Assembly: GCA_017619375.1 (NCBI GenBank)
Contig: JAFZSL010000040.1
Span: 62,001 to 126,000, forward strand
Reading direction: 5' to 3'
From: Prevotella sp.
Lineage (GTDB): Bacteria; Bacteroidota; Bacteroidia; Bacteroidales; Bacteroidaceae
Length of the DNA stretch: 64,000 bases
This document shows, in pieces, positions 11,685 to 43,729 of the stretch. The stretch's first letter is position 1. Each line of letters opens with the position of its first letter. The notes below the pieces were generated by a model. That model was not told the DNA's origin. It worked only from the letters and a program-made list of their open reading frames with translations, and ran no database searches. The position numbers and the translations under genes are program-made.

Positions 11685-11690
11685 CTTACT

Positions 11691-12580: not shown

Positions 12581-12599
12581 CAGACTAAACTATATTTAT

Positions 12600-14380: not shown

Positions 14381-14396
14381 CTTCTTGGTAACCATC

Positions 14397-22758: not shown

Positions 22759-24123
22759 ATGATAAAACATGGACTTTTGACGATACTCTTGATGCTTTCA
22801 AGTTTGACAGGCTATGCACAGGAGGAAAAATATGACTCCCTTGCCGCAAAGGAGAGGGCGTTCGCATTCCAAATCTTCGATGCCGTGGCAGCGGAAAACG
22901 AGTCCAACATCTGTTTCTCACCCCTCTCGGTGCAGATGGCACTTTCCATGGTGCAGAACGGTGCCGACGGCAATACCTTGCAACAAATCAAGGACGTAAT
23001 GGGGGTGGGGGACTATACTTGCGAGGACGTAAACCTCTACAACCAACAACTGACAAAAAAACTCGTTTACAGGCCCGAGTTCGAGTACAATCCAAATGGA
23101 TGGTATTCAGAAGAGGAACAGAAGGATAATTACGAGAAGGCATACCCCATTTGCGAATTGGCCAACGGTGTTTGGTCGCGAAAGGGCACCGTGTTCCGTC
23201 AGGAGTTTTATGACACCTTGAAAACGTATTACGATGCCGAGGTGGCCGATGTCGATTTCACCACACAGGAGGGCATCGACCAAGTCAACCAATGGGTGAA
23301 AAACAAGACACACGAACTCATCCCTTCCATCTTCGACGAACCACAGTCGGAATACCTCGCCATGGTGCTCGCCAACGTACTCTATTTCAAGGGCGCATGG
23401 ACGTTGCCTTTCTTGGAGGAATACACCTTCCCCGGCAATTTCCACCTCGCTGACGGCACGATGGTGAAAGCCGAAATGATGAACGCCTCTGAATCATACC
23501 GCTCCAGCAGGACGGAGAAATTCCGCACTGTCACACTGCCCTATGGCCGTGACGGGAAATTCTCCATGACACTGTTCGTACCCGTGGAGGGATATGAACT
23601 GCCTGCCCTTGGCTATGACGACTGGGCCTATGCCAAGAAAGAGTCGAAATACAAGGACCTGGCCTTGCAGATGCCGAAATTCTATGTCGAGGGCAAATAC
23701 AACTTGAATGATGTGCTCAAAACCATGGGGATGCAGGATGCTTTTGACACTTACCTTGCTGATTTCAGCCGTATGTATGACAAAGACTTGTGGATAGACA
23801 AGGTTTATCAGATGAGCAAGATCGTCGTCAATGAGCAGGGCACGGAGGCCACGGCGGTCACCGTGGTCGAGATGTACGACAATGCTCTTCCTGATGAACT
23901 GGAAGATTTCCGTGTGGACAGGCCGTTTTATTTCACCATTGAGAGTCAGGACGCCATCCTCTTCGTGGGAAGGGTGAATGAGTTGCAGAGTACCGCAGGA
24001 GTCAGCACCGCCAAGGTGGCTCCCCATCGTGACGGCATCTACGACCTCCAAGGTCGCCGCTTGTCGCAACGACCCGACAGAGGGCTCTTCGTGGAGGACG
24101 GAAAACTAAAGGTCGCACAATAA
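22759..24123 (+). CDS. Secreted serpin-family protease inhibitor
   Basis: A 454-aa serpin with a signal peptide (residues 1-20, cleavage near GYAQ). The body has the family landmarks NICFSPLSVQMALSMVQNGA near the start and LYFKGAWTLPF in the middle. The reactive-loop hinge reads EQGTEATAVTVV, with small residues at P12-P9, as expected for an inhibitory serpin, and the following EMYDNALP contains the likely P1 site. Counting 17 residues from the hinge Glu places P1 at or next to Asn. After the normal serpin end (FVGRVNEL) there are about 37 extra residues ending in a GIYDLQGRRL tail. It would act extracellularly or on the surface against host or competitor proteases. Confidence 0.9.
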   Translation: MIKHGLLTILLMLSSLTGYAQEEKYDSLAAKERAFAFQIFDAVAAENESNICFSPLSVQMALSMVQNGADGNTLQQIKDVMGVGDYTCEDVNLYNQQLTKKLVYRPEFEYNPNGWYSEEEQKDNYEKAYPICELANGVWSRKGTVFRQEFYDTLKTYYDAEVADVDFTTQEGIDQVNQWVKNKTHELIPSIFDEPQSEYLAMVLANVLYFKGAWTLPFLEEYTFPGNFHLADGTMVKAEMMNASESYRSSRTEKFRTVTLPYGRDGKFSMTLFVPVEGYELPALGYDDWAYAKKESKYKDLALQMPKFYVEGKYNLNDVLKTMGMQDAFDTYLADFSRMYDKDLWIDKVYQMSKIVVNEQGTEATAVTVVEMYDNALPDELEDFRVDRPFYFTIESQDAILFVGRVNELQSTAGVSTAKVAPHRDGIYDLQGRRLSQRPDRGLFVEDGKLKVAQ

Positions 24124-29429: not shown

Positions 29430-30416
29430 TCAATCTTCAATCTTATCCGCTATTGCCTTGCAGAAGTTTTCATGCCTGCGGTTGACATACCATTTCAGCA
29501 TGGTCATCGCGATGGCTTCAAAGAGGAAGTGCATGACAGGCACGTCGAGCAGACAAAACAAGAAGAAAAAGGCGGACCGGAAGTTGAACGTCAGCATGCC
29601 GTTCCATTTCATCAATGCCAAAGAGTTGCTGTGGAACTCTTCCCTGATGGCGGGAGGGATGTCAGTGGAGTTGTGGTATTTCTGTCGCAACAGGGTGACC
29701 AGGCGTTGGAGTTGGGGAGTCACTTGCTCTTGTTTGCGCGTATAGTCGATGTAGGATTTCTGGAAGACCCGTTCAACGAGGGGTGCATCTTTCGGCATTT
29801 GGTCGTAGATTTCCTGCTGGCGTACAGAGTTGTCAAACTCGCTGCCTTCCTCGTTTTTCAGGAAGAAGAGGTGGGCTTGGATGTAGTAGTCGGCCAAGCG
29901 CGATTGCGCCCCCATTCCGGCAAAACCAGCGATGGCTCCCAACACGAGGACAACGATGGTGGCGATGAGGGTGTTCGTCGGGGTGTCGCTGATGCCAAGC
30001 CATCCAAACTCGATGTCGTGGTGAATGTAGAACCGATAAACCAACAGGGCGTAGATGGGGACGAACCAGACAAAACCTGCTATGCCGTCGAGGATGCGTC
30101 CCATGCGGCTTTTCTTTCCGGTCATACGGGCCAGTTGACCGTCGGTGCAGTCCAACAGGTCGGCGATCATAAGCAAGATGATGGCAACAATGTTGCAAAC
30201 AAGCCCGGTGGTGCCTTCATAGAAGAAACAGCCATGGGCGAAGAAAAAACTGCTGCCGACGCCGAAGAACATCGACAGGATGGTCACGGTGTTGGGATGG
30301 ATGTCGAAACGGGCAAAGAACACCGCCAGGTAATAACATATCGGCCTGACAACATGGAAGTCCAACCAGTCCTCTGTCTCTTTGGACTTCAGTGTTTGGT
30401 AGTATTTTTCGTTCAT
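29430..30416 (-). CDS. CDP-alcohol phosphatidyltransferase-family membrane enzyme with altered signature
   Basis: A 328-aa integral membrane protein with about six hydrophobic segments. The family signature D89-x2-D92-G93-x2-A-R97-x8-G106-x3-D110 is present (DCTDGQLARMTGKKSRMGRI then LDGIAG), but the position of the last conserved Asp is Gly (G114). That Asp is the presumed general base in characterised members, so the chemistry may differ or be lost. A region of about 90 residues with charged helices (LFFLKNEEGSEFDNSVRQQE) interrupts the membrane part and is unusual. The start at 30416 follows the promoter at 30469; an in-frame ATG at 30479 lies ahead of it. It could attach a head group to lipid, or use a soluble acceptor. 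Confidence 0.8.
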   Translation of the reverse strand: MNEKYYQTLKSKETEDWLDFHVVRPICYYLAVFFARFDIHPNTVTILSMFFGVGSSFFFAHGCFFYEGTTGLVCNIVAIILLMIADLLDCTDGQLARMTGKKSRMGRILDGIAGFVWFVPIYALLVYRFYIHHDIEFGWLGISDTPTNTLIATIVVLVLGAIAGFAGMGAQSRLADYYIQAHLFFLKNEEGSEFDNSVRQQEIYDQMPKDAPLVERVFQKSYIDYTRKQEQVTPQLQRLVTLLRQKYHNSTDIPPAIREEFHSNSLALMKWNGMLTFNFRSAFFFLFCLLDVPVMHFLFEAIAMTMLKWYVNRRHENFCKAIADKIED

Positions 30417-30468
30417 GGTTTCTTGGTTTTGGTCTGCACCCTTTTTCGCTTCGTTCGGGTTGCGACTG

Positions 30469-30476
30469 CAAAAATA
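30469..30476 (-). promoter_or_regulatory. Promoter -7 box of the CDP-alcohol phosphotransferase gene
   Basis: The minus strand reads TATTTTTG (TAnnTTTG). It places transcription initiation downstream of the in-frame ATG at 30479 and so decides for the start at 30416, with a leader of about 45 nt. Confidence 0.65.
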
Positions 30477-30653
30477 CATCTTTTATGGTAATTATCGGCA
30501 TTTTGAACAAGATTTTGTTTTTCTTTAGCATATAATTGCTGGATATTATTTAACAGCAATTTTCTTTGATTCATATTAACTGCAACCACGCCTGCGAAGG
30601 CAATAAGGTGGAGGAAAAGTTAAAAAAAATTTGGCTCTTCATTCGTTTATTCG

Positions 30654-30661
30654 TAACTTTG
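30654..30661 (+). promoter_or_regulatory. Promoter -7 box of the CE15-CotH operon
   Basis: TAACTTTG matches TAnnTTTG. TTTG at 30630-30633 lies 20 nt upstream. The leader to the ATG at 30682 is short, about 15 nt. Confidence 0.75.
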
Positions 30662-30681
30662 CATAATCAATTATTCACACT

Positions 30682-31938
30682 ATGAGATACTTGTCTTTAT
30701 TGTCAGTTTTCGTCATGTGCTCCTTGAGCATGTCGGCGCAGAAATCCATCCCTCTTGTTTATGATGTGGAAAACACCGCAGCAGATGTCACACCTGTCTT
30801 CCCAGCAAGGCAGGAGGCACGGAAAAACGTGGGCCTCACCGACCCCCTGGAATGGTCGAATGGGAAAGGAAGAGTGAAGAAATTCTCCAAATGGAGCAAG
30901 CGTCGCGGTGAGATTGCCAAGGAAATACAACATTATGAGATAGGCGAGAAACCTGTTGTGCCACCATCGGCCGTCAAGGCGAAGATGGAAGGGGAGAAAC
31001 TGATAGTGGATGTGACGGTCAATGGACAGACCCTCCAACTCAGCGCCACCATCAAGTATCCAGAGACGGGACAGCCGCCCTATGCGCTGATGATTGGCAC
31101 CAGTGGCATTGCATTGCCTCCGGCAGTGTATTCCACCAGGCCCATCGCCACCATGGTGTTCAGTGAGAGGCAGGTTGCCAATTATTCGCAGTTTGGCAAA
31201 CGTGGGGACCGGGGGGAATATGAGTTCGACCGACTCTACCCGTCGTTGAAACAGAATGGCGCCTACAGCGAATGGGCGTGGGGACTAAGCCGTTTGCTCG
31301 ACGGCTTGCAGCAACTTGGTACGGAGGTCACCAAAATTGATATGAAGCACATCGGCGTGACGGGATGCTCTTATGCCGGAAAGATGGCCCTCTTCTGTGG
31401 TGCTTTTGATGAACGTGTCGCTCTCGTCATCACCCAGGAACCCGGAGGTGGTGGCGCCGCCGCATGGAGGTATTCCAGTTGGATGAACGCCCAGCCGGGT
31501 GCTACGGCTGTAGAAGGCATCGACAACACCGACTACCATTGGTTCATGGAGAGCCTGAAGGAAAACTTTGGTGGCGATAACATCTCCTATCTCCCTTACG
31601 ACCATCATGAACTGGTGGCCATGGTTTGTCCCAGGGCGCTGCTCATGCTCGGCAACCCCGATTACCCGTGGTTGGCCGACCCCGCTGCATACGTCTCCAT
31701 GAACGGAGCCATCAAGGTGTGGGAACAATTTGGCATCGACGACCGCGTAGGATATTCCATCGTCGCAGGTCACGGCCATTGCCAACTCCCGGAGTCGCAA
31801 TACCCGGAAGTGGAGGCATACATCGACAAGTTCTTGCTGGGCAAGGACAATGGTAATACCAAGGTGAGGAAAGCGCTGGAGGGGTATGCCGACATCGACC
31901 TCGAACCATGGATCGGATGGTGGGGCAAAAAGAAATGA
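30682..31938 (+). CDS. CE15 glucuronoyl esterase
   Basis: A 418-aa exported alpha/beta-hydrolase. The signal peptide is residues 1-19 (cleavage near MSAQ). The nucleophile motif is GVTGCS230YAGK, followed by GAFDERVALVITQEPGGGG, and the histidine is in GHGHCQLPE; this is the CE15 pattern. Such enzymes cleave ester bonds between glucuronic acid on xylan and lignin alcohols. The stop codon overlaps the next start (ATGA), so the downstream CotH-type protein is translationally coupled. Plant cell-wall deconstruction outside the cytoplasm is the likely setting. Confidence 0.87.
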   Translation: MRYLSLLSVFVMCSLSMSAQKSIPLVYDVENTAADVTPVFPARQEARKNVGLTDPLEWSNGKGRVKKFSKWSKRRGEIAKEIQHYEIGEKPVVPPSAVKAKMEGEKLIVDVTVNGQTLQLSATIKYPETGQPPYALMIGTSGIALPPAVYSTRPIATMVFSERQVANYSQFGKRGDRGEYEFDRLYPSLKQNGAYSEWAWGLSRLLDGLQQLGTEVTKIDMKHIGVTGCSYAGKMALFCGAFDERVALVITQEPGGGGAAAWRYSSWMNAQPGATAVEGIDNTDYHWFMESLKENFGGDNISYLPYDHHELVAMVCPRALLMLGNPDYPWLADPAAYVSMNGAIKVWEQFGIDDRVGYSIVAGHGHCQLPESQYPEVEAYIDKFLLGKDNGNTKVRKALEGYADIDLEPWIGWWGKKK

Positions 31939-33593
31939 GGCAAGTTTTCATATTCCTCTTCTGCAGCCTCATGGCCTGCCTCGATGTGGCAGGCCAAATC
32001 ATGATTGATGGTGTACCTGTCGCCTATGACAGGCTATCCAACACATTCCTTGTCTCCATACCCGCCAACCAGTGGGGGAGGGACTGGCAGGCACACGTGG
32101 CCTTGGAGGACAGCACCGGCTGGCAACAGGTGGAGGTCAATGGACAACCTGTCGGACAGATGGTGACTTTCGAACAGGTGGAACCACAGAAGACTTATAC
32201 CGTCAGGGCCATGCTCGGCGACAGCCTCGTGCATAGACAACTTGAATTCACCTACCTTCCCATCGTCCATCTATGGGGAGAATTTGGCATAGAACAGGCT
32301 CCAGCCCGCATCACCTTCCAAATGCCGGGGGAGGGCGAACAGGAGTTGAAGGCCATGGTGAAATGGAGAGGATACACCACCAACGATTCAGCCAAACATA
32401 AAAGGAATTACAAAATCAATTTCATAGACAAAAAAGGGGAGAAGAAAGACTATCGGTTCTTCGGCTTAAGGAAAGACAATGGTTGGATTCTTGATGCGGG
32501 ACAGGTGGACCTCTTCAGGATGAGAAACCACATAGCGGCAAAAATGTGGGATGACTTCGCCACCAAACCCTATTATGCCACCGAGGACATGGAGGTGCAC
32601 ACCTCTTCGAGAGGTGAAATCGTGGAGGTGTTCCTCAACGACCAATACCAAGGCATCTACAACATGGGTGAACCCGTGGACAGAAAACAGATGCAACTAA
32701 TGAAATTCGACAGTACGACGGGCGAGATTCACGGAGGACTCTGGAAGTCGGAAGGGTGGGAGGACACCACATTCTGGACACTTACTTCACAATATGACAA
32801 CACCGAACCCAGATGGGCGGACTTCCAACTCGAATACCCGGGACTCGACGACCTCTGCCCCTCAGACTACAGCACGCTTTACAACGCCATCGACTTTGTA
32901 GTCAACTGCGAGGACCACGAATTCAAATACCTAATCGACGAATACATCGACATCCCGGTGTTCATTGACTACTATATCTTCGTCAACATCCTCAATGCCA
33001 TCGACCTCCAGGGGAAAAACATCTTCTGGGCTGTCTATGACAAGCAGGCTGACAAGAAACTGACCCTGGCCCTCTGGGACCTCGACACCACCGTGGGACA
33101 AAACTATAACGACCTGCCGCCGCACACCGAAATGACAGCCTACGACGCCTTCCCTATGACACCAACGAAAATCGGATGGCAGTTGGTGAGCACCAATCCC
33201 GACAACTTCAACCAAAAGGTGCGAGACAGATATTTCGGACTTAGGGAAAACATCTTCTCCGCCGACAGTCTTGTCAATAGGTATCGCTCTTGTTATGAAA
33301 AGGTGAAAAACTGTGGGGCGGCCAACAGGGAGGAGAGACGATGGAGCAGGGACGAAGACATCGGCTACCTCCCCTTGGACTTCGATGAGGAAATAGCCTA
33401 TATCGAGGACTGGTTGCGCCACCGTCTCGAGGTTACCGACGAGTTCTTCAACAACCCAAGGACCGGCATCGATTGCATCACCATGCAAACCGGTGACGAT
33501 GATGTGCTCTACAACCTTATGGGTCTCAAGGTCAATGACGGGTACAAGGGCCTCGTCATCACCAAAAATGGGAAGAAATACATCAAAAAGTGA
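31935..33593 (+). CDS. CotH-type secreted protein kinase family protein
   Basis: A 552-aa exported protein beginning MRQVFIFLFCSLMACLDVAG; SLMAC could be a lipobox, or cleavage could follow VAGQ. An N-terminal beta domain of about 100 residues precedes the CotH kinase-like region. There RNYKINF, the hydrophobic LFRMRNHIAAKMWDDF, GIYNMGEPVDRKQM and LWDLDTTVGQNY match the family, the last probably holding metal-binding Asp. The C-terminus has the tail YNLMGLKVNDGYKG. CotH proteins phosphorylate exported substrates in spore formers; in Bacteroidota their targets are not known. Its start overlaps the CE15 stop, so an in-frame ATG at 31908 is rejected. Carbohydrate or protein phosphorylation is open. 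Confidence 0.8.
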   Translation: MRQVFIFLFCSLMACLDVAGQIMIDGVPVAYDRLSNTFLVSIPANQWGRDWQAHVALEDSTGWQQVEVNGQPVGQMVTFEQVEPQKTYTVRAMLGDSLVHRQLEFTYLPIVHLWGEFGIEQAPARITFQMPGEGEQELKAMVKWRGYTTNDSAKHKRNYKINFIDKKGEKKDYRFFGLRKDNGWILDAGQVDLFRMRNHIAAKMWDDFATKPYYATEDMEVHTSSRGEIVEVFLNDQYQGIYNMGEPVDRKQMQLMKFDSTTGEIHGGLWKSEGWEDTTFWTLTSQYDNTEPRWADFQLEYPGLDDLCPSDYSTLYNAIDFVVNCEDHEFKYLIDEYIDIPVFIDYYIFVNILNAIDLQGKNIFWAVYDKQADKKLTLALWDLDTTVGQNYNDLPPHTEMTAYDAFPMTPTKIGWQLVSTNPDNFNQKVRDRYFGLRENIFSADSLVNRYRSCYEKVKNCGAANREERRWSRDEDIGYLPLDFDEEIAYIEDWLRHRLEVTDEFFNNPRTGIDCITMQTGDDDVLYNLMGLKVNDGYKGLVITKNGKKYIKK

Positions 33594-33671
33594 AATCTTA
33601 GCCCTATGGGAAAACAAGAATCCCAAGGTAAACCTGCCCCTTAAGAAAAAACTATCAACCTATTTATAATT

Positions 33672-35117
33672 ATGAGAAAATTAGTCTTTTTGAGTTTGTT
33701 GCTGGTGGCGATGACCATCCAGGCACAAACAGCGAGGAATTTCAAAATCGACCTGGTGGAGGGCGAATCGCACATGGTGGCGTTCCTTCCCGAGAATCCG
33801 TCGGGGAAAGCCATCGTTGGCATCCCAGGTGGAGGCTACTCCGTGCTCTCCAACTCCCATGAGGGACTGCAATGGTCGAACTGGCTCAACCAACAAGGTA
33901 TTGCCTACTTCGTAGTGAACTACAGACTGCCCGAAGGCGACCGCACACGACCCATCGGTGACGTGGAGAAAACGTTCCGCATCGTCAGGGACTCGGCGGC
34001 AACATGGGGCATCAACCCTCACGATGTCGGCATCATGGGATTTTCCGCAGGTGGACATTTGGCATCGGTCATCTCCACCCTCTCTCCTTATGAACTGAGG
34101 CCCGACTTCACCATCCTTTTCTATCCCGTCATTTCCATGGATGAGAAGGTGTCGCATGTGTGGTCTTGCCGCAACTTCCTTGGTGAGGACCAGAAAAATC
34201 CCGAGATGGTGAAGAAATACTCCACGCAGAACGCCGTGAAGAGACACCTCACGCCGCCTGCAGTCATCCTCATGTCCAATGACGACAGACTTGTGCCGCC
34301 GGTAACCAATGGCATCGCATACTATTCGGCCATGCGCAATGCAGGTAACGAATGCTCGATGTTCGTATATCCTTCCGGCGACCACGGATGGGGCGTGGGA
34401 CCGTGGTTCAAATACCACGACCAGATGCTCAACGACCTCGGCAACTGGCTCAAAAACCGACAGACTCCGAAGACCGACGCCATCAAGGTGGCGTGCATAG
34501 GAAACAGCATCACCGACGGACACGGCATCGACATGGCTCCACAACATGGATATCCAGCACAACTGCAAAGAAGACTGGGAAGCGACTATTGGGTGAAAAA
34601 CTTCGGCGTGAGTGGCAGGACGATGCTCAACAAAGGTGACTTGCCCTATATGAACGAGACGGCGTGGCAGGATGCACTTGCCTTCCAACCCGACATCGTC
34701 GTCATCAAGTTGGGCACCAACGACACCAAACCGCAAAACTGGCAGTATGGTGACACCTTCAAGCAGGACTTGAAAGAGATGATTACCCAACTCTGCCCGT
34801 CGCTTGCATTACAAGCCAAGGGCAAGAAAAAAGTAAAGAAGACTAAAGTGGCAGAACCTGTCAAACCGCAGATATTCCTCTGCACCCCCATTCCGGCCTT
34901 CAAGTCATCGTGGAACATCAACGACTCCATCATTGTCAATGGCGTCATTCCCATCCAGCAGGAGGTGGCCAAGGAATACGGCCTGAACATCATCGACCTC
35001 CACTCCCTCTTCGCCGAAGATGGCGACTTGGTGCAGCCGGATGGCATCCACCCCAATGACAAGGGCGTGGCGAAGATGGCGGAAATCATAGCCGACGAAA
35101 TCAAGAAAAACCAATAG
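33672..35117 (+). CDS. Two-domain esterase: alpha/beta-hydrolase fused to SGNH hydrolase
   Basis: A 481-aa exported protein with a signal peptide (residues 1-18, TIQAQ). Domain 1 (about 25-265) is an alpha/beta-hydrolase of the acetyl-xylan-esterase/carboxylesterase type with IPGGGYS as oxyanion motif, the nucleophile S125 in MGFSAGGH and the histidine in YPSGDHGWG. Domain 2 (about 272-481) is an SGNH/GDSL hydrolase opening with CIGNSITDGHG and ending with the DGIHPND block. Both active sites look intact, so the protein could remove two kinds of acyl groups or act on two positions of a decorated polysaccharide. It is monocistronic and ends at a clear terminator. Confidence 0.85.
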   Translation: MRKLVFLSLLLVAMTIQAQTARNFKIDLVEGESHMVAFLPENPSGKAIVGIPGGGYSVLSNSHEGLQWSNWLNQQGIAYFVVNYRLPEGDRTRPIGDVEKTFRIVRDSAATWGINPHDVGIMGFSAGGHLASVISTLSPYELRPDFTILFYPVISMDEKVSHVWSCRNFLGEDQKNPEMVKKYSTQNAVKRHLTPPAVILMSNDDRLVPPVTNGIAYYSAMRNAGNECSMFVYPSGDHGWGVGPWFKYHDQMLNDLGNWLKNRQTPKTDAIKVACIGNSITDGHGIDMAPQHGYPAQLQRRLGSDYWVKNFGVSGRTMLNKGDLPYMNETAWQDALAFQPDIVVIKLGTNDTKPQNWQYGDTFKQDLKEMITQLCPSLALQAKGKKKVKKTKVAEPVKPQIFLCTPIPAFKSSWNINDSIIVNGVIPIQQEVAKEYGLNIIDLHSLFAEDGDLVQPDGIHPNDKGVAKMAEIIADEIKKNQ

Positions 35118-35158
35118 GAAAGACTTGATTATCTTGATTCCTTCCTATCCCTATATAA

Positions 35159-35184
35159 AAAGGTCACCTCGGTGGCCTTTTTTT
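35159..35184 (+). terminator. Rho-independent terminator after the double esterase gene
   Basis: AAAGGTCACC and GGTGGCCTTT pair (one G-T wobble) around a minimal loop, followed by a run of T. It lies about 40 nt after the esterase stop. Confidence 0.85.
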
Positions 35185-35236
35185 GTCTTAGGATAAAAAA
35201 ACAACTTATATAAGGATGGATTTCAAAATCTTTTCC

Positions 35237-35244
35237 TATCTTTG
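35237..35244 (+). promoter_or_regulatory. Promoter -7 box of the SH3-domain gene
   Basis: TATCTTTG (TAnnTTTG) occurs 52 nt before the ATG at 35297, just beyond the upstream terminator. Confidence 0.65.
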
Positions 35245-35296
35245 CCGTGTCCTTTGAGTAGATTTTTTAGTAAATAACTATTATAACTCTTATAAG

Positions 35297-35731
35297 ATGA
35301 AGAAAAAAATCGTTTTGATGGCAGCAGCCTTGTTGTGCTGTTTGGCCATGTCGGCCCAAAGCATGAAGATGGTGGTCGACTCGAAAGGAGAAGTGGTGGG
35401 ACGACTGGTCAGAATAAATGCCGACACCTATACCGTGGATGTGCAGGATTCTTATGACGTGCCCAAGGCGGGCAACCGTGTCGTCACCTACAGCGCTGCC
35501 AACGGACAGGGCATTTGCTATCGCCATCCCGACCGCAGGGGCAACATCAACGTACGGAAAGGCCCGTCCACCAAAACTGCTGTCATAGCCAAGATTCCTG
35601 ATGATGATTACCTTCCCGAATGCTATCCTTGTTTGGGTAAGTCCAACGGATGGTACAAGATTCGCATCGACGGAAAGATTGGTTATGTCCGACAGGATTT
35701 GGCCCAATGGGATGGCATGTGCACCTTCTGA
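35297..35731 (+). CDS. Secreted bacterial SH3-domain protein
   Basis: A 144-aa protein with a signal peptide (residues 1-20, MSAQ). The C-terminal about 65 residues form an SH3b domain with NVRKGPSTKTAVIAKI, NGWYKIRIDGKIGYV. The middle 40 residues (MKMVVDSKGEVVGRLVRINADTY) precede it without a known family. SH3b domains bind peptidoglycan or protein partners in the periplasm. It has its own promoter and is followed by a 15-bp hairpin. Function unknown beyond envelope binding. Confidence 0.75.
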   Translation: MKKKIVLMAAALLCCLAMSAQSMKMVVDSKGEVVGRLVRINADTYTVDVQDSYDVPKAGNRVVTYSAANGQGICYRHPDRRGNINVRKGPSTKTAVIAKIPDDDYLPECYPCLGKSNGWYKIRIDGKIGYVRQDLAQWDGMCTF

Positions 35732-35793
35732 GAAAAACTTTTTGGGGAGTGGGCCTTTAAGGTCTTTACAAGGCTTGGCTCCTTATGATATTG

Positions 35794-35830
35794 TTCGGGC
35801 GGATTTGCTGAATTGGCAAATCCGCCCGAA
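35794..35830. terminator. Perfect 15-bp hairpin downstream of the SH3 gene
   Basis: TTCGGGCGGATTTGC and GCAAATCCGCCCGAA enclose TGAATTG. It is the only structured element of the 244 nt between the SH3 stop and the promoter at 35976. No T-run follows, so it is a terminator-like or mRNA-protecting hairpin. The rest of 35732-35975 holds nothing I can recognise. Confidence 0.6.
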
Positions 35831-35975
35831 AGCGTCTTCCTATGGTGTCTGATTTTCCTGGTGTTCCGGGTCTTCATAGGGGTCTTGGAATCCTGTGAAT
35901 TGTAAACAAATGTTAAAAATGTGGCTTTCGGTGAAAAAAAGTGCCGAAATATTTGGAGGGTATCCTTATTTGACA

Positions 35976-35983
35976 TACTTTTG
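35976..35983 (+). promoter_or_regulatory. Promoter -7 box of the DUF3836-ABC-gntR operon
   Basis: TACTTTTG matches TAnnTTTG, with TTTG at 35952-35955 exactly 20 nt upstream. A perfect inverted repeat begins 2 nt downstream, so the start of transcription would fall inside it. Confidence 0.8.
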
Positions 35984-35984
35984 C

Positions 35985-36008
35985 AGTGTACTATTAAAGT
36001 AGTACACT
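35985..36008. promoter_or_regulatory. Probable GntR-family operator (9-bp inverted repeat)
   Basis: AGTGTACTA and TAGTACACT flank TTAAAG directly after the promoter -7 box. The operon it heads ends with a YtrA-like gntR gene. Small GntR regulators of ABC-transporter operons bind such palindromes in their own promoters. The position would block initiation or clearance, so autorepression is inferred. Confidence 0.7.
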
Positions 36009-36047
36009 AAAACACTAAAAACAGTAACCCTTTAAAATATCAACATT

Positions 36048-36524
36048 ATGAACGTCATCATCACCGCCTTCACCATCATGAGCATGTACTTGAACCTCTC
36101 TCAAAGTACCGATAACATGTATTGCTACAACGCCGACACCGAGAACGGCGCAGTCACCACACTCTATGTCTACGAGAATAAAGCCGGATACCTCACTCCT
36201 AAGGTTTGCTATCATTTCGACTACGACGAACAGGGACGGCTCACCGAGCGCATCAGATGCAAATGGAATGCCGAAGCAAAGACCTACCTACCCAAATCTT
36301 GCCTCAGGTTCAACTACACCGAGAATGACTACGTACTCTCACACAGCACTTGGAACAACAATACCAGTTCCTGGAATCCCACCGATGAAAAGATGCTCTA
36401 TAGCCTCGGAAGCGACCAACTCGATTCCGTCACGCATATCCTCGTTGGTAGCAACGATGAAACCACTATCAAGCGACTCTTCATCCTTGGCTCCCACAAC
36501 GAACGCCTCCTCACCCAAAAGTAA
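36048..36524 (+). CDS. DUF3836-like small secreted protein
   Basis: A 158-aa protein whose N-terminus (MNVIITAFTIMSMYLNLS) is a short hydrophobic stretch, possibly a signal or anchor. The body has repeated strand patterns: YVYENKAGYLTPKVCYHFDYDEQGRLTERIRCKWN and LRFNYTENDYVLSHSTWNN are halves of RHS/YD-like strand pairs seen in Bacteroidota DUF3836 proteins. The family name is a tentative recognition. It is the first gene of an operon with an ABC transporter and GntR regulator, 53 nt ahead of the ATPase, so it may be an envelope partner of that transporter. Confidence 0.55.
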   Translation: MNVIITAFTIMSMYLNLSQSTDNMYCYNADTENGAVTTLYVYENKAGYLTPKVCYHFDYDEQGRLTERIRCKWNAEAKTYLPKSCLRFNYTENDYVLSHSTWNNNTSSWNPTDEKMLYSLGSDQLDSVTHILVGSNDETTIKRLFILGSHNERLLTQK

Positions 36525-36576
36525 ACCATAATTCCTATTTCCTCCTATAGAAATAATCACTAAATAACATATCATC

Positions 36577-37422
36577 ATGATCGATATCCAAAACATCAGT
36601 TTCAATTATGCAGGACAAAAGACGAAGGTCTTCGACAACTTCAGCCTGCAACTGACAGAGAACAACATCTACGGCCTTCTGGGCAAGAACGGAACGGGTA
36701 AGAGCACACTGCTCTACCTCGTTTCCGGTCTCCTCAGGCCTTGTAAGGGAACAGTCAAGGTCGATGGCATGGAGTCGGCTCTACGCAGACCCGAAATGCT
36801 CGAGGAACTGTTCATCGTCCCTGAGGAGTTCGAACTCCCCAACATGACCCTGGAGAAATACGTCAGCATCAACCAACCTTTCTATCCACGTTTCAGCCGC
36901 GAGGTGTTGCAAAACTGCCTCAACGACTTCGAACTGCCCGCATCTCTCTCACTACAGTCGCTTTCCATGGGACAGAAGAAGAAGGTGTTCATGAGCTTCG
37001 CACTCGCGGCTGGAACACGGTTGTTGCTGATGGACGAACCCACCAACGGACTCGACATCCCATCAAAAGTGCAGTTCCGGCGCGTCGTGGCCAACAACAT
37101 GACCGACGACCGCACACTCATCATCTCCACACACCAGGTGCACGACGTGGAGTCACTGCTCGACCACATCCTCATCTTGAGCAATGAGAAACTGTTGCTC
37201 GACGCTTCCGTGGCCGACATTTGCGAGCAGTACAGTTTTGAATACAGGACACCGGGCGCAACAGACGACGACGTCCTCTACAGCGAACCGTCAGTGCAGG
37301 GCAACGCCGTCATCACGAGACGCACCTCTGACATGACGGAGACTCCGCTCAACCTCGAACTCCTCTTCAACGCCGTAACATTGGGCAAGGTGAATGGAAA
37401 CATAGGTAACGTTGCACGATAA
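36577..37422 (+). CDS. ABC transporter ATP-binding protein (YtrB-like)
   Basis: A 281-aa ATPase. Walker A is GLLGKNGTGKST, the signature is LSMGQKKKV (a variant of LSGGQ), Walker B is LLLMDEPTNGLD and the switch histidine is in IISTHQVHD. The reduced size and variant signature fit drug/lantibiotic-type exporters of the YtrB class. It is co-transcribed with two membrane proteins and a GntR regulator, which together make the complete transporter. The substrate is unknown. Confidence 0.9.
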   Translation: MIDIQNISFNYAGQKTKVFDNFSLQLTENNIYGLLGKNGTGKSTLLYLVSGLLRPCKGTVKVDGMESALRRPEMLEELFIVPEEFELPNMTLEKYVSINQPFYPRFSREVLQNCLNDFELPASLSLQSLSMGQKKKVFMSFALAAGTRLLLMDEPTNGLDIPSKVQFRRVVANNMTDDRTLIISTHQVHDVESLLDHILILSNEKLLLDASVADICEQYSFEYRTPGATDDDVLYSEPSVQGNAVITRRTSDMTETPLNLELLFNAVTLGKVNGNIGNVAR

Positions 37423-37435
37423 AACAACCAAGACC

Positions 37436-38215
37436 ATGAGCCAGAATTTCAATTTGCAACGACTGGGGAGATTCCTACGATGGACTCTCGTCACCGACCT
37501 GCCTTATTACAAGAAGACCTTGGGGTCTTTATTGGGGGGAATGATCATCATCTTCCAGTTTATCAACTTGTTCATGTGGAGAGGCGATGGGTTTCATTTC
37601 GTCTATGTCGTTGTCTCCTCCCTCATGATTATCATTCCCTTGGTGGGGTCTACCTATTTCTTCCATTCCTATTCGAATTGGAAAGACGGCATACGCGACC
37701 TCTTCATGTTGCCCGCATCCAACCTGGAGAAATTCCTTGTCAGATACATTCTCTCCGTTTTGGTGCAGCTGGTGCTCTTCTTTATCAGTTGTGTGGTGGG
37801 AGACATACTGCAGTACATTGTGGGACTTGTCGTAGGACGCGAACCATTGAGATTCATCTTCTGGGACATCCTCTCCATGATATCCTTCCAACCGACATTT
37901 AGCAAGGAATTCTTCTGTACGGCAATGCTGTTGTTGTGGATGCATACTCTGTACTTGTTGGGAGCCAATTTCTTGAGAAACATCAAATATAATTTCGTCT
38001 TCCCGACCTTGATACTCTTGCTTCTCTTCATCTTTGTGATAATGTTGCTGCCTGACAGTGGGTATGGAAAAGGAAAGGTGATGCACGAAATCGTGCTCAA
38101 CCATGGCGTGGTCGTTGGCTGCCTGTTGCTCGCCGCCAGCATCTTCAACTATATGCTTTCATATCGCCTCTTCTGCCGCAGGCAGCTGATAGGACGGTTC
38201 TTCAACACACTTTAA
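37436..38215 (+). CDS. ABC-type transporter membrane protein (first)
   Basis: A 259-aa polytopic membrane protein with about six hydrophobic segments (GGMIIIFQFINLFMW, FVYVVVSSLMIIIPLVGSTY, YILSVLVQLVLFFISCVVGD, ILLLLFIFVIMLL, VVVGCLLLAASIFNYM). The polar LFMLPASNLEKFLVRYIL segment between helices is shared with the next gene (LTLPATNLERWTSALIF), which marks the two as paralogous permease subunits. It starts 13 nt after the ATPase stop; an in-frame ATG at 37412 inside the ATPase gene is less likely. Confidence 0.8.
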   Translation: MSQNFNLQRLGRFLRWTLVTDLPYYKKTLGSLLGGMIIIFQFINLFMWRGDGFHFVYVVVSSLMIIIPLVGSTYFFHSYSNWKDGIRDLFMLPASNLEKFLVRYILSVLVQLVLFFISCVVGDILQYIVGLVVGREPLRFIFWDILSMISFQPTFSKEFFCTAMLLLWMHTLYLLGANFLRNIKYNFVFPTLILLLLFIFVIMLLPDSGYGKGKVMHEIVLNHGVVVGCLLLAASIFNYMLSYRLFCRRQLIGRFFNTL

Positions 38216-38226
38216 AACTTGATACA

Positions 38227-39039
38227 ATGGATAATTTCAATTTCAATAGGTTCGTCAGAACATTCAAATGGTGCTTTTATGAGCAACGAGGCAAACTGCT
38301 GAAATGGACGACTGTCGCCATGATTGTCACCTTCGCCGTCGAAATGTTTTTCGTGTTCATGCTCAAAAATAAGACAAATGACATGGGGAGCATGCCTGCC
38401 TATCAGGCAGCAGTGGAAATCTCAAGCACAATAAGTTCGCTCTTCTTGATGATTGCCGTCATGATGGCCAACAGCAACATCTTCGAGTGGATGAAGACCA
38501 AGCAGAAACGTGCCGCATACCTCACACTGCCGGCCACCAATTTGGAAAGATGGACCTCTGCCCTCATCTTTGCGCTTGTCGTCTTCCCCGTATGCATCTC
38601 AATGGGGTTTGTCGTAGGAGATTACATCAGAGACGGTATCTACTATGTCCTGGGCAAGGAATGGATGTCGGGGACGGGTTACCTCCTCAATGTCCTTGGA
38701 ATAAAAAATAATGCCATGGAATTTGACTTGTTGGGGTTAGCCGTGACTGTCTGGTCGGCCTCTTGCTACATTCTTGCAGGGACTTGGTTCAAAAAGGGAC
38801 AGTTCGTCGTCCCCACGGTCTTCATCATCGCTCTTATGTCATTCCTGACGTATCTGGCAAATCACTACGGTAACGAGATTGCAGAAATGGTTGTTAAAGG
38901 TGTCTCTAAAGGGTATGCCGACACAATGAAATACTCTGTCATTTCTTTCATCTTCCTTGCTGCAATTTTCAACCTCTGGTTGAGTTTCAGACTCTTCAAA
39001 CGATTCCAAATCATCTCCACTAATTGGACCAACCTATGA
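38227..39039 (+). CDS. ABC-type transporter membrane protein (second)
   Basis: A 270-aa membrane protein with about six hydrophobic stretches and the same LTLPATNLERW landmark as the upstream permease, 11 nt away. Both end in an ...LWLSFRLFKRFQI- or NYMLSYRLFCRRQL-type final helix. Together with the YtrB-like ATPase they would form a heteromeric exporter. The stop codon overlaps the start of the GntR gene (ATGA). Substrate unknown; antimicrobial resistance or envelope stress is typical of such operons. Confidence 0.8.
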   Translation: MDNFNFNRFVRTFKWCFYEQRGKLLKWTTVAMIVTFAVEMFFVFMLKNKTNDMGSMPAYQAAVEISSTISSLFLMIAVMMANSNIFEWMKTKQKRAAYLTLPATNLERWTSALIFALVVFPVCISMGFVVGDYIRDGIYYVLGKEWMSGTGYLLNVLGIKNNAMEFDLLGLAVTVWSASCYILAGTWFKKGQFVVPTVFIIALMSFLTYLANHYGNEIAEMVVKGVSKGYADTMKYSVISFIFLAAIFNLWLSFRLFKRFQIISTNWTNL

Positions 39040-39407
39040 CATTCAGCAACGACAAAGCCATATACATCCAGATGGCCGACCGCCTCTGCGATGAGATTCT
39101 CTCAGGGAAATACGAGGACGATGCGCGAATCCCGAGTGTTAGGGAATATGCCGTGCTCCTCCAGGTGAACACCAACACCGCCATGAAGGCTTACGACCAA
39201 TTGGCTCGCGACGAGGTCATCTACAACAAGCGTGGATTGGGCTATTTCGTCAAGCCGGGGGCCAAGGAGCAGATCATGACGGCAAGGAGAAAGGAGTTCC
39301 TTGAGGAACACCTCCCTGAACTCTTCCGAAATATGAAATTGCTGGGCCTCGACATCAAAGACGTCATCAAGGCCTGGGAAGAGATGGACAACAATCTCCC
39401 GAAGTAG
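39036..39407 (+). CDS. GntR-family regulator, YtrA-like
   Basis: A 123-aa protein with an N-terminal winged helix (IYIQMADRLCDEILSGKYEDD, IPSVREYAVLLQVNTNTAMKAYDQLARDEVIYNKRGLGYFV) and a short C-terminal helical arm of about 50 residues rather than a ligand-binding domain. That size is diagnostic of the YtrA subfamily. The start ATG at 39036 overlaps the permease stop; the upstream in-frame MDQP is rejected on that basis. It probably represses its own operon through the palindrome at 35985-36008. Confidence 0.88.
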   Translation: MTFSNDKAIYIQMADRLCDEILSGKYEDDARIPSVREYAVLLQVNTNTAMKAYDQLARDEVIYNKRGLGYFVKPGAKEQIMTARRKEFLEEHLPELFRNMKLLGLDIKDVIKAWEEMDNNLPK

Positions 39408-39459: not shown

Positions 39460-42400
39460 TCACCACTCCAAACCAATTTGGCGGAGCACCTCTGCGCTGG
39501 AAGAACAGTCGATGAGGTTCGGGCGATGGCCTTCCGCCACAGACAAATGGGCGACAGCCGACAATGCCATGGTGCGCATGGCGTTGTCGGCTGACGCCTT
39601 TTCCACGGCATCCATGAACAAATGGTCATCCACCACGCGGATATCTGGGACAGAGGTGTCTGGGGAGACGGTATGGCATTGGCTTCTCAGCAGTTCGAGG
39701 AAGGTTGGCGCATGGGCTTGGGCGATGTGGAAGACTTTGGGGTCTTCAGTGTCTTGGAATGGCCTTTTCCGCAGCGTTGTCAGACGGAGGATGGCGTCGG
39801 CAGCCACATCTACAGGGATGAGGCTGACGGGGAGGTCGGCGACAGAAACCGGGACCATGCGCAAAAGGGCACATAGCCGCAATGCCATCGCAAGGCTGTT
39901 GGTTTCGGCATGGCGTTGGAACCGTTTGTCGGATGAGCGTGGCGACAGAGACCCTACGCGCATGATGAGTGCGTCGAGTTGCTTGTCGGCCATCATTTCC
40001 AGCACCAAACGTTCGGCCATGAACTTGCTATGTGTATAGGGGTCGTCCAATAGTTGGCCGATATGCAAGTCGCGTACGGTCAACGTGGAGGCGCACCCCG
40101 ACAGCGCATCATGGTATCCCGCGATGCCCAGGGTGGACACCTGCACCAATAATGAGTGATGGTCGTGGCAGAATGCTGCTAATCGCGACACCGCTTCTGT
40201 GTTCACGGCATGCAGCAGTGAGGGGCGGGCGAAATGCCTCACATCGGCGGCGCAGTTGATGACCATGGAGAAATGACGACCATGCAACGGGGTGAGGGCG
40301 TCGACATCGGTCAGGTCGCCAGGCACCACGTCGAGATGCCGGAGTTGTTCTTCGGAGAGGGGTTTCCCGAAATAATAGGCATGGGAGTCCTGCAGTCGCT
40401 GTTGGGCGTGTGCCGATGACGCTCCTCTGACAAGGCAACATACGTCTCCCTTCTCGCGCTCCAAATATTCATGGAGCAAATGGATGCCCAGATATCCCGT
40501 GCCACCGGTCAAGAGCATACCTCCTTGGCAGGCATGGCTGTCATCGCTCCTATGGTTCCCATCGCTCCTCAGGCACTGATGTATCCGTGAGTAGTCGCCA
40601 TCGATGGGATAAAGGGTGGTGGTGTGTTCATGGGCCAACTGATGTGCCAGTTTTCTCGGTGTAGGATGTAGAAACACCCATCCGTATTCCGTTTTGCATC
40701 CCACTTCTCCAAGCACTGACATCAGGCTCATGGCTGTCAGCGAAGAACCACCAAGGAGGAAGAAGTCGTCGTCGAGACCCACGGCGTCACATTGCAGCAC
40801 TTGGCTGAATGCGTCGCAGACTACACGTTGGAGGCGTGTGAGTGGGATGGCGGTGGAATGGGAGGTGGAGAATTCGGGAGATGGCAGATTCTTGCGGTCG
40901 ATTTTCCCATTGGATAGCAGGGGAAACTGCTCCATCTCTATCCAACAGGTGGGTACCATGTAGGAAGGAACTTGCTCAAGCATCGCCTGCATCAGTGTCT
41001 TTTCGTCCGTCGTCTCTTTGGAAGTGTAGTAGGCGCATAGTTGGGTGCGTCCCTGGTGGGTGGCTGTGGTGACGCAGGCTGATGTGACATGGGGGAGATG
41101 GGCGACGAGGCGTTCCACCTCGTCAAGGCTCACCCTGTAGCCGTTCACTTTCACCAAACGGTCCAAACGCCCCATGTATTCCAACTGCCACTCCTCATTC
41201 CATCGCGCCAGGTCGCCGGTGTGATAAAGGAGGGGCATGGGTTCTCTGGGATTTCTGCTATCCCTGGTGTCCATAGGAGTGAATCTCTCCTTTGTCAGTA
41301 GTGGGTCTTTCCAATAGCCGGTGGCAAGTTGCGGCCCCGACAGGCAGAGTTCGCCGACGGCACCTTGGGGAAGGAGTCGGCCGTGGTGGTCCAACACGTA
41401 GGCGGCGGTGTTGTCAAGGGGGCGGCCGATGGGGATGGTGGCGTATGTGCGCCCTTGTTCCAGTTCGTAATAGGTGGCATCCACGCAGAATTCCGTAGGC
41501 CCGTAGGTGTTGTAGATGTGGCAGGTCGACGCCGGGACGTTCATCAGTTGTTCACCACCAAGACAGATGTAGTCGAGTGTGGGGTGGGGACGGCTTGCCA
41601 CCAGGGCGCCCATCTGCGTGGTGTAGCAGCCGCCGGTGATGTGGTGGTCGTCGAGGAACAGGTGGAGTTTGTCCATGTCATGCCTCACCTCTTCGGGCAT
41701 CATATGGACGCTTCCCCCGACGGTGAGGACGGGGAACAGGTCTTCCACGTGGGCGTCGAAGGTCAGGGAGGAATGGCAACTGATGCGACTGTGTGCGTCT
41801 ATGTGCCAGCGACGCACGATGAAATGCAGCAGGTTGGTCAGGGCGCGATGCGGGAGCATCACACCTTTTGCATGGCCTGTCGTGCCTGATGTGAAAATCA
41901 TGTAGGCAGTGTCGTCGGGAAGGACCCGGGGAAGTTGGATGACACTTCCTGAGGCGGGGTGGGGGAGGCGCATGGGGTCGAGCGTCACTCTTAGGTTGGC
42001 ATCCGTGACAATCGCCTCGCGGTAGGTTTCCGGCCAGGAAGGGGCGAGGGGCACGTAGGCGGCTCCTGACAGCATGATACCGACGACGGCCGTCAGGAAT
42101 CCGCAGCAGGGGATGGCTGTCACGCCGACGAAATCGCCTCGTCCCACACCCTGTTCTGCGAGCCAATACGCCACGTCGCTCGCCGCACTTTCCAACTGTG
42201 CGTAGGTCAGCGTCTCGCGACCATCATCCACCGCCACGGCATCAGGGGTGCTGCTCGCTTGCGCTTGCCACAGGTCCAGGAAAGTCTTGTCGGCATCATA
42301 AGGCACCCGTTCGCCTTGCGACAGATGGATGATGTCCGTTCGCTCTTTTTCGTCCACAAGTTCAACGTTCTTGATGGCAAGGTGGGGGTGTCTCAGCATT

Positions 42401-43653
42401 TGTTGGATGCAGCGTGACATGCACCTGGCGAACATCTCCAAGGTCTCTTCCCCTTGGTATGACGCACTCGCATCGACACGAATCTCATACTCTTGGTCAC
42501 TGGCATAGACAATGCACCCCAGCCCGTTGCCGGCTACGCCCTTGCGGAGTTGAACGCCCTCCACTGATGCTCCGCCCACGGTGACGCGCTCAAGGATGTC
42601 GTTCCCCTGGAAGGCGAAAGTGGCTTCCGCGCTTTTGAGCAGGTCGCGACAGAAATGGGTGTAGGGGTAGATGGAGTGACGCAGGGAGGCGGTCAGCAAA
42701 GGCCTGAGGCTGTGAAGATAGTCCAATATTGAAACGTCGGCAGCCAACTCGCTCACCATGGGGATGGTCTTGACAAACATGCCATAGGCATCTCGATACT
42801 TGCGGATGCGGCCGTGGGTGAGGGTGGCGAAGGCCACGCGGGGGGTGTGGCACAACTTCGACAATACGATGCAGAAAGCACCCATCAGCAGTTGGTTGGG
42901 GGTGGTGTGGTGGGTCTCGCACCATTGGTCGATGGATGAACGGGGAACCCTCTGGCTGACAACGAATCCGCTGTCAGACTGCTTCCCGGCAAGTGTGTGC
43001 GCACTGTGACGACGGGATTCCCGTTGCTCTCTTGGTTCGTGGTTGGTTGTGGAGGGTAATGCGGTGAACTCCACATCGGTGAAAAGTGCATGATGGTACG
43101 CCTTGGCGGCCTGGTAGGCTGGGGTGGAGGACTGCCGTTCCTCTTCTTCGGCTTGGTCGTAGAGCAGATGGTCGCCGTCTTCCAGAGGCTGGCCTGCATA
43201 GGCTGCTGGCAGGTCTCGTCCCATGAAGCAATGGGCGATGGTGATGCCGTCGGCGATGACATGGTGGAAGTCGGACAGCAACCAATGGTGCGTCTCCGTT
43301 TCCACCACCTCGAAACGACACAAGGGATGGGGGGAGAACAACTGGAAAGGGCGGACAAAACTGTCGCGTATGTAGGCGAGGACCTCGGATTCCTTCATCC
43401 TGCGGAGTGGCACCGTCACCTCCATTTCCGCATCGGCATATTGCCGGGGAATGCCTCTCTCGGAGAAGACAAGCCGGGTGCGGAGTGTCGGGCGGCTTCT
43501 CACGATGGCCTTGACGGCGAGTACGAGTCTGTCTGCATCCACCTCCTTGGGGAATGGGATGGCGGAAGGCAGGTTGTAGGAGGTGGACCCTGGGTGTTGC
43601 CCGCAAGCCACCACGATGCCCGTCTGCGATTGTGACAGTGGATAGGTTTTCAC
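39460..43653 (-). CDS. Single-module nonribosomal peptide synthetase: C-A-PCP-reductase
   Basis: A 1397-aa multidomain synthetase. Condensation domain at about residues 1-420 (YPLSQSQTGI; HHVIADG, H131 catalytic). Adenylation domain at about 450-940 (FTSGTTGHAKG; FDAHVEDLF; YNTYGPTE; GKIDRK). Carrier domain with phosphopantetheine serine S971 in LGGSSL. NAD(P)-dependent thioester-reductase domain at about 1045-1397 (TGGTGYLG, VQVSTLGIAG, YTHSK). All key residues seem present. It would condense an external acyl or aminoacyl donor with one amino acid and release an aldehyde or alcohol. By eye the pocket residues read D-A-E-C-I-L-T-V-D-K; I make no firm substrate call. The GTG at 43653 begins the C domain correctly; a TTG at 43698 is less plausible. 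No tailoring gene adjoins it. Confidence 0.88.
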   Translation of the reverse strand: MKTYPLSQSQTGIVVACGQHPGSTSYNLPSAIPFPKEVDADRLVLAVKAIVRSRPTLRTRLVFSERGIPRQYADAEMEVTVPLRRMKESEVLAYIRDSFVRPFQLFSPHPLCRFEVVETETHHWLLSDFHHVIADGITIAHCFMGRDLPAAYAGQPLEDGDHLLYDQAEEEERQSSTPAYQAAKAYHHALFTDVEFTALPSTTNHEPREQRESRRHSAHTLAGKQSDSGFVVSQRVPRSSIDQWCETHHTTPNQLLMGAFCIVLSKLCHTPRVAFATLTHGRIRKYRDAYGMFVKTIPMVSELAADVSILDYLHSLRPLLTASLRHSIYPYTHFCRDLLKSAEATFAFQGNDILERVTVGGASVEGVQLRKGVAGNGLGCIVYASDQEYEIRVDASASYQGEETLEMFARCMSRCIQQMLRHPHLAIKNVELVDEKERTDIIHLSQGERVPYDADKTFLDLWQAQASSTPDAVAVDDGRETLTYAQLESAASDVAYWLAEQGVGRGDFVGVTAIPCCGFLTAVVGIMLSGAAYVPLAPSWPETYREAIVTDANLRVTLDPMRLPHPASGSVIQLPRVLPDDTAYMIFTSGTTGHAKGVMLPHRALTNLLHFIVRRWHIDAHSRISCHSSLTFDAHVEDLFPVLTVGGSVHMMPEEVRHDMDKLHLFLDDHHITGGCYTTQMGALVASRPHPTLDYICLGGEQLMNVPASTCHIYNTYGPTEFCVDATYYELEQGRTYATIPIGRPLDNTAAYVLDHHGRLLPQGAVGELCLSGPQLATGYWKDPLLTKERFTPMDTRDSRNPREPMPLLYHTGDLARWNEEWQLEYMGRLDRLVKVNGYRVSLDEVERLVAHLPHVTSACVTTATHQGRTQLCAYYTSKETTDEKTLMQAMLEQVPSYMVPTCWIEMEQFPLLSNGKIDRKNLPSPEFSTSHSTAIPLTRLQRVVCDAFSQVLQCDAVGLDDDFFLLGGSSLTAMSLMSVLGEVGCKTEYGWVFLHPTPRKLAHQLAHEHTTTLYPIDGDYSRIHQCLRSDGNHRSDDSHACQGGMLLTGGTGYLGIHLLHEYLEREKGDVCCLVRGASSAHAQQRLQDSHAYYFGKPLSEEQLRHLDVVPGDLTDVDALTPLHGRHFSMVINCAADVRHFARPSLLHAVNTEAVSRLAAFCHDHHSLLVQVSTLGIAGYHDALSGCASTLTVRDLHIGQLLDDPYTHSKFMAERLVLEMMADKQLDALIMRVGSLSPRSSDKRFQRHAETNSLAMALRLCALLRMVPVSVADLPVSLIPVDVAADAILRLTTLRKRPFQDTEDPKVFHIAQAHAPTFLELLRSQCHTVSPDTSVPDIRVVDDHLFMDAVEKASADNAMRTMALSAVAHLSVAEGHRPNLIDCSSSAEVLRQIGLEW

Positions 43654-43657: not shown

Positions 43658-43665
43658 CAAAAATA
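43658..43665 (-). promoter_or_regulatory. Promoter -7 box close to the NRPS start
   Basis: The minus strand reads TATTTTTG (TAnnTTTG) only 4 nt before the GTG at 43653. If used, transcription would begin almost at the start codon. It is divergent from the LOG-gene promoter at 43730. Confidence 0.5.
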
Positions 43666-43729
43666 GACAATAAAATGAATCACACCTTCAAAAAACAATC
43701 TAAAATAACCTTTTTTCCTCGATTTTCAT

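Follow-up and report, generated by a model that had tools for sequence, protein, structure and literature searches.

A one-gene condensation-adenylation-carrier-reductase synthetase of Prevotella with a predicted acyl-initiating condensation domain

Nonribosomal peptide synthetase (NRPS) modules in which condensation (C), adenylation (A), carrier (T, or peptidyl carrier protein, PCP) and terminal reductase (R) domains follow one another are already known. The myxochelin synthetase MxcG of myxobacteria receives an aryl group bound to a separate carrier protein, uses lysine and releases its product reductively as aldehyde and alcohol (PMC8400222; here and below, papers are cited for excerpts of their text), within a siderophore cluster that includes aryl-acid genes and an aryl carrier. 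In aureusimine synthetase AusA the same order forms the second half of a protein with its own A-T loading module (A-T-C-A-T-R), with the same reductive release (PMC12153313). Gut anaerobes make ruminopeptin and other NRPS peptide aldehydes, for which the aldehyde is held to be the active form (PMC12327764). Acylation is the task of lipopeptide starter C domains (surfactin, glidobactin, RzmA/HolA), which are N-terminal, use acyl-acyl carrier protein (acyl-ACP) or acyl-CoA that can come from primary metabolism, and in two cases come from clusters without an ACP or ligase gene (PMC7804268). Among gut bacteria, Coprococcus has the fatty-acid-amide condensation enzyme OaaC, a C domain that likewise works with acyl-ACP (PMC13142362). 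The window described here is a stretch of 64,000 nucleotides from Prevotella sp. (assembly GCA_017619375.1, contig JAFZSL010000040.1, positions 62,001 to 126,000) and contains, on the minus strand at 39460..43653, a single gene with a GTG start encoding a monomodular C-A-T-R NRPS of 1,397 aa. The open-access literature searched does not show this variant, with its orphan one-gene setting, a putative initiator C domain outside the classical starters, an A domain with a conserved acidic pocket and its occurrence in Prevotella.

This one gene probably constitutes a pathway in which an initiator C domain takes an acyl group in trans and the R domain releases an N-acyl amino aldehyde or alcohol, with a basic residue as the amino acid. 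The T domain would be armed by an Sfp-type phosphopantetheinyl transferase (PPTase), the single one detected in the genome, and the A domain would activate a basic amino acid, most likely lysine, and load it onto T. As an initiator of a lineage-specific type, the C domain would then N-acylate the T-bound amino acid with an acyl group supplied in trans by primary metabolism, either as acyl-AcpP or as acyl-CoA made by housekeeping ligases. Finally, the R domain with NAD(P)H would release the N-acyl-aminoacyl thioester as an aldehyde, and a second reduction, if it occurs, would give the alcohol; the degree of reduction is thus part of the prediction.

The Pfam matches, all above curated cut-offs and all on the minus strand, follow the C-A-T-R order. 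Condensation (PF00668, 3.8e-51) spans residues 2–441 (42331..43650), and AMP-binding (PF00501, 1.5e-61) spans residues 463–781 within an adenylation domain that a domain-specific profile places at residues 450–925 (40879..42306). PP-binding (PF00550, 7.1e-8; 33 bits, cut-off 20.8) covers residues 944–1004 of a carrier domain at residues 942–1004 (40642..40830; 92 bits with a custom profile). NAD_binding_4 (PF07993, 1.8e-31) covers residues 1048–1288 of a terminal thioester reductase domain at residues 1044–1397 (39463..40524), which also matches the thioester reductase model TIGR01746 at 112 bits, under its curated cut-off of 213. These matches bear out the description, made in an earlier sequence-only reading, of a single gene with C, A, carrier and terminal NAD(P)-dependent reductase domains; one polypeptide with a terminal reductase and no loading module is the monomodular C-A-PCP-R layout.

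Each domain retains its characteristic residues. They comprise the C motif HHVIADG (residues 130–136; 43246..43266), the phosphopantetheine serine S971 in LGGSSL (40741..40743), and both short-chain-dehydrogenase motifs of the R domain, GxxGxLG in the nucleotide-binding TGGTGYLG (residues 1049–1056; 40486..40509) and the catalytic YxxxK (Y1206 and K1210; 40024..40038). In an alignment of the window protein with 16 orthologues, into which only stop-free frames could be entered, H131, D135 and G136 of the HHxxxDG motif, G968, G969 and S971 of the carrier, and G1050, G1053, L1055, G1056, Y1206 and K1210 of the reductase are invariant (17/17), and YxxxK is also invariant in 20/20 R domains. H130 and the threonine at 1049 vary, and the intactness noted earlier thus holds on alignment for the second histidine, aspartate and glycine of the C motif and for the carrier and reductase motifs. 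Against the nearest orthologue (locus L101, about 75–76% identical in protein), the ratio of nonsynonymous to synonymous substitution rates (dN/dS), computed by a hand-written NG86 script, is 0.20 overall and 0.27 in the R domain, with the C domain the most constrained part of the gene at 0.14. With its domains and motifs intact and a dN/dS of 0.20, the gene is under purifying selection.

Relatives at a threshold of 1e-60 are present in 37 of 100 Prevotella genomes and in 60 of 399 genomes of a family sample, many of them dimodular or larger. Stand-alone relatives were counted by reading the listed rows at ≥39% identity, with contig-edge partial copies included and multimodular enzymes excluded; they occur in 10 of the 100 Prevotella genomes and 11 of the 399, the host genome being in both sets. 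In an order sample (295 genomes) the C-to-R matches outside the family that score best among the matches listed are 33–34% identical. The alignment scan yielded at least 80 loci, 15 of which were read for domain order and six more for pocket codes; a single-protein scan of genome contigs found no relative. The patchy distribution would suit a decaying remnant, or a gene whose C domain is inactive, but no stop interrupts the 17 aligned frames (selected, as noted, for being stop-free), the catalytic residues are invariant and the C domain has the lowest dN/dS, so that decay is very improbable.

The best NCBIfam match is AusA (567 bits, residues 3–1397 against AusA 994–2353), well under its cut-off of 2500, and MxcG matches at 378 bits, under a cut-off of 2300. 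The MxcG match spans residues 3–1294, and the two enzymes therefore share the domain order C, A, carrier, reductase; the further likenesses, a donor from elsewhere and lysine as substrate, are predicted. By analogy the enzyme may work like MxcG without being filed as MxcG. Its single module differs from AusA, which brings its own loading module, and the product predicted, with one amino acid from one gene, differs from the dipeptide aldehydes of the ruminopeptin class. OaaC is likened here by description and differs in being a free-standing C domain with small-molecule amine acceptors.

The host genome (4.26 Mb in 78 contigs, 99.98% complete) offers few partners. No second condensation domain was detected in it, the sole match being that of the window gene. 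It has 11 AMP-binding matches, of which only that of the window NRPS shares its protein with a detected carrier; a separate A-T protein whose carrier the profile can detect did not turn up. PP-binding has two matches, the NRPS carrier and one fatty-acid-type AcpP-like protein (a frame of 81 aa, or 79 aa if counted from its ATG, before an ORF recognized by eye as FabF-like). A single PPTase-family match (around L002:1465–2001) lies on another contig than the window gene; its best NCBIfam match is the AusB PPTase (70 bits, under the cut-off of 225), a further likeness to the aureusimine system, and its length and motifs, read by eye, suggest the Sfp type. As far as the profiles used can see, an NRPS loading module is excluded in this genome. 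A donor in trans, as argued previously for want of an upstream loading module, is thus backed by the whole-genome search, and an NRPS module is an unlikely source, because no other C domain was detected and the only other carrier detected is the AcpP-like one. Between the two donors then offered, the acyl-ACP or acyl-CoA is favoured and the aminoacyl carrier disfavoured, since the search found no A-T protein whose carrier is detectable and since the C domain clusters with initiating ones (see below).

Scans for C and carrier domains covered 19 of the 23 genomes with stand-alone genes (all but G338, G322, G341 and G366). Fourteen of the 19 show a single C match, which in G548 is on a different contig from the remainder of the gene. 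G626 gives two pieces, both within one ORF, and more C matches occur in G303, G313, G321 and G437. Just two carriers were detected in the host genome, G702 and G517, one in G548 (78% complete), and three to eight in the other 15. These scans bear on whether the enzyme acts in trans as one module of a larger NRPS pathway whose genes are dispersed. C domains can take donors from separate proteins, and at locus L147 a dimodular NRPS precedes a C-A-T-R gene, but the host genome has neither another C domain nor an A-T protein with a detectable carrier, and 15 of the 19 scanned genomes have a single C domain, which leaves this arrangement highly unlikely.

A short or aromatic acid donor, such as acetyl-CoA or an acid that an unlinked ligase activates, would give a small, myxochelin-like N-acyl amino alcohol. 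MxcG, the second-ranking comparison above, works with such an aryl donor (PMC8400222), but in the host genome no second small carrier, for example for an aryl group, was detected beside AcpP, and no aryl carrier or aryl-acid gene like those of the myxochelin cluster occurs among 20 neighbouring ORFs scanned (21–52 kb of the window; Pfam matches all but three of them, and the scan did not extend to small ORFs like 39024–39407). Acetyl-CoA could still serve, and we consider donors of this kind improbable overall.

Two trees of C domains, a first of 87 rows and a second, careful one of 99 rows from which short hits, three unusual reference C domains and four epimerase-like rows had been removed, agree in their placements; the trees are unrooted, have few references and leave out L115, which has no usable C domain (contig edge). 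In the second tree 20 of 22 stand-alone C domains fall in one 25-row clade with a support of 100/100, together with the N-terminal C domains of three large multimodular Prevotella lines (L138, L139 and L140), a grouping already present in the first tree, and in addition with those of the C-A-T-R gene L147_10001 and of L153 (C1), from Lachnospiraceae. None of the 25 follows a carrier in cis; the starter-C feature of an N-terminal position without upstream carrier is thus found in the window gene and in 25/25 clade members. Outside the clade are those C domains in the tree that do follow a carrier, as well as the N-terminal ones of the dimodular family.

A FadD-like AMP-binding ligase is encoded near the NRPS in all four multimodular lines of the clade (by Pfam in L227 and L230, the loci of L138 and L139). 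It is upstream in L153 (immediately adjacent), L227 (at a distance of one gene) and L140 (in divergent orientation), and in L230 it is found some genes downstream. The L227 and L140 ligases are 78% identical, the best NCBIfam match of the L140 and L153 ligases is long-chain-fatty-acid-CoA ligase (under cut-off), and the L153 locus has a carrier of 84 aa, the ligase and the NRPS in consecutive order. By analogy, such neighbours are the usual equipment of acyl initiation, and the clade is best read as a lineage-specific initiator C type outside the classical starter group.

This placement bears on self-condensation, in which the C domain would join two aminoacyl units of the same enzyme (two copies, or one reused) to a homodipeptide aldehyde and hence a pyrazinone. 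Such a route needs no other aminoacyl carrier, and cyclising dipeptide aldehydes are the product class of AusA, the nearest curated model (PMC12153313). It sits poorly with a clade of N-terminal initiating domains, four multimodular members of which lie near acyl ligases, and the reference C domain that follows a carrier and is taken for that of AusA (from an unannotated Staphylococcus record to which the window protein is 25.5% identical) belongs to another part of the tree. Self-condensation is accordingly doubtful, and initiation with an acyl group is preferred.

Two further observations concern the same architecture. Two stand-alone C-A-T-R proteins from other Bacteroidales families (L022:1168–5310 in G066 and L023:1186–5214 in G174) have ornithine-like codes (DVGEIGSIEK and DVGEVGSIEK) and C domains that join the fengycin-type reference starter; they apparently represent an independent route to this architecture, and their products are perhaps N-acyl ornithinals. 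At L147 a dimodular R-ended NRPS (2695–9978) is followed after 22 bases by the C-A-T-R gene (10001–14398, code DAEGTGVDDK), a tandem of reductase-ended synthetases.

The specificity pocket of the A domain had been read by eye as DAECILTVDK. The columns used were rejected, as the same columns give DVWHVCLVDK for E. coli EntF. With positions 5 and 6 moved by one column EntF reads DVWHFSLVDK, which we take to be its established serine code, and the window protein reads DAECCGTVDK; the two letters at those positions were thus wrong and the remaining ones are kept. In a B. paralicheniformis locus the corrected columns give, in order, DGFFLGVVYK, DLYNLSLIWK, DAWFLGNVVK, DAKDIGVVDK, DGFFLGVVYK, DAESIGSVCK and DVGEIGSVDK. 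This series matches the residue order of bacitracin, presumably Ile-Cys-Leu-Glu-Ile-Lys-Orn, and by that order DAESIGSVCK is the lysine code and DVGEIGSVDK the ornithine code. The 23 stand-alone proteins have the codes DAECCGTVDK (14), DAECVGTVDK (4), DAEGTGVDDK (2), DAECCGTVNK (1), DASDVGQVAK and DATDVGQVAK. The third letter is acidic in 21 of the 23, as in the BacB lysine code DAESIGSV (PMC3207962). Neither DAECCGTV nor DAECVGTV appears in the open-access literature searched. The suggestion of a polar or basic side chain, drawn earlier from the acidic third letter, survives the correction, and the pocket hints at a basic substrate, with lysine as the first candidate.

Several observations weigh against an acylated basic amino acid as the product. 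The window code shares five of nine letters with the lysine code DAESIGSVCK and equally five of nine with the glutamate-type codes DAKDIGVVDK and DAQDLGVVDK (four with the ornithine code), such that lysine and glutamate codes are separated only by the sign of the third residue; a basic substrate is favoured because the acidic third letter is opposite in sign to the lysine found there in DAKDIGVVDK. PF00550 can miss divergent carriers, as the first T domain of dimodular relatives scores 9–21 bits with the custom profile. No ligase or carrier was seen adjoining the window gene, and the closest ligases of its genome are of a housekeeping kind: at 1e-100 their family occurs in 27 of 30 Prevotella genomes, its own among them. 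The stand-alone relatives L118 and L119, which also have different codes, fall in another C clade. A joint clade with five classical-looking starters is rejected (log likelihood 44.8 lower, p-AU 0.0009 in an approximately unbiased, AU, test), for a group that was named after the tree had been seen and comprises five reference rows, of which one is labelled fengycin-type from its dacB neighbour; surfactin, glidobactin and RzmA/HolA are not in the tree. In the trees the C domain groups with initiating N-terminal C domains and stays apart from the classical starters, and the term initiator therefore reflects position and neighbourhood, not family membership.

A dedicated ligase elsewhere in the genome was considered and rejected; the closest candidates are 42–55% identical to three of the four cluster ligases (29–33% to that of L153), and their family is widespread. 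In the dimodular relatives (L121, L122, L124 and L126–L137) the GGTS motif is replaced by GLTS in the first T domain (in L136, in the second of three), and the last T domain of the same proteins scores 79–107 bits, compared with 9–21 for the GLTS type.

The surroundings of the gene vary. No tailoring gene, thioesterase or PPTase adjoins it among the 20 scanned ORFs, in line with what had been noted from the sequence. A conserved tailoring or transport neighbourhood was rejected on comparing 20 orthologue or relative loci with 40 kb of the window; blocks are shared only by close pairs or small groups, and no constant companion of the NRPS gene was seen across these loci. The neighbours found (DUF5020, MsbA-like ABC, MurF, DHPS-like, DisA-type cyclase and S13 peptidase) mostly look like housekeeping genes. 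Counter to this, a DUF5020 gene directly follows the NRPS gene on the same strand in two of its four nearest relatives (L102 and L103), and in L103 an MsbA-like ABC exporter comes next (L102:7276–8013, L103:7882–10416), a candidate export pair; DUF5020 is not beside the window gene among the neighbours scanned. ABC genes at 36577–39039 are convergent to the window gene, and the block 29430–39039 recurs in L101. A serpin (protease inhibitor) gene is located at 22759–24123, ~15 kb from the NRPS gene. In L118 and L119 one shared family (L118:6325–7062, L119:11758–12495; nitroreductase by Pfam in L118) adjoins the NRPS gene, a possible tailoring enzyme. Directly upstream of three multimodular Prevotella NRPS genes is a MATE-type transporter fused to a histidine-kinase-like ATPase, HATPase_c_2 (L227:11940–13688, L228:9750–11504, L140:9800–11617), a combination that looks unusual.

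Recent import, judged by composition, was rejected: the G+C content at third codon positions (GC3) is 0.69, within the 0.65–0.74 of 12 other window genes measured, and the higher GC of this stretch is therefore no sign of import. All matches in phage and plasmid records are below 60% identity, the best about 25–30% among the matches listed, and these include no close relatives.

The ORF is open on the minus strand from 43698 to 39460. The GTG at 43653, chosen as the start from the sequence, is the first codon in six of 16 orthologue frames and within one residue of it in two more; the other eight are open further upstream, and this start is thus likely, not proven. A promoter-like stretch at 43658..43695 (minus strand) contains the box TATTTTTG with TTTTTTG upstream and is almost the same in the L101 locus; the label assumes TAnnTTTG to be the Bacteroidota promoter consensus. 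The box ends 4 bases ahead of the GTG, so that a leaderless message, or else a start codon deeper in the gene, is possible.

In the open-access literature searched, a scope that leaves most subscription papers outside, there is no paper on this gene family. Expression of Prevotella NRPS clusters in the rumen has been reported, without products in the excerpt available (PMC8241843), and in that of PMC9248904 Prevotella is named in a reference title only. A protease-inhibitor role for the product is a guess by analogy, made because of its product class, for which the aldehyde is held to be active (PMC12327764). More speculatively, and only as a tentative extension, a Bacteroidota-centred lineage of initiating C domains distinct from the classical starters could have given rise to one-gene C-A-T-R pathways in gut and rumen Prevotella, with acyl groups taken straight from the fatty-acid carrier and N-acyl lysinals or lysinols, shaped like trypsin or gingipain inhibitors, as products.

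If the proposed pathway is correct, one portable gene can make a reactive lipid-amino aldehyde out of housekeeping acyl chains, and because the whole pathway may be one gene, a single expression plasmid would suffice for testing its product, donor and target. More than one origin of acyl-initiating C domains would then be suggested, and Prevotella would gain a defined chemistry where, in the reports excerpted here, NRPS clusters had expression but no product.

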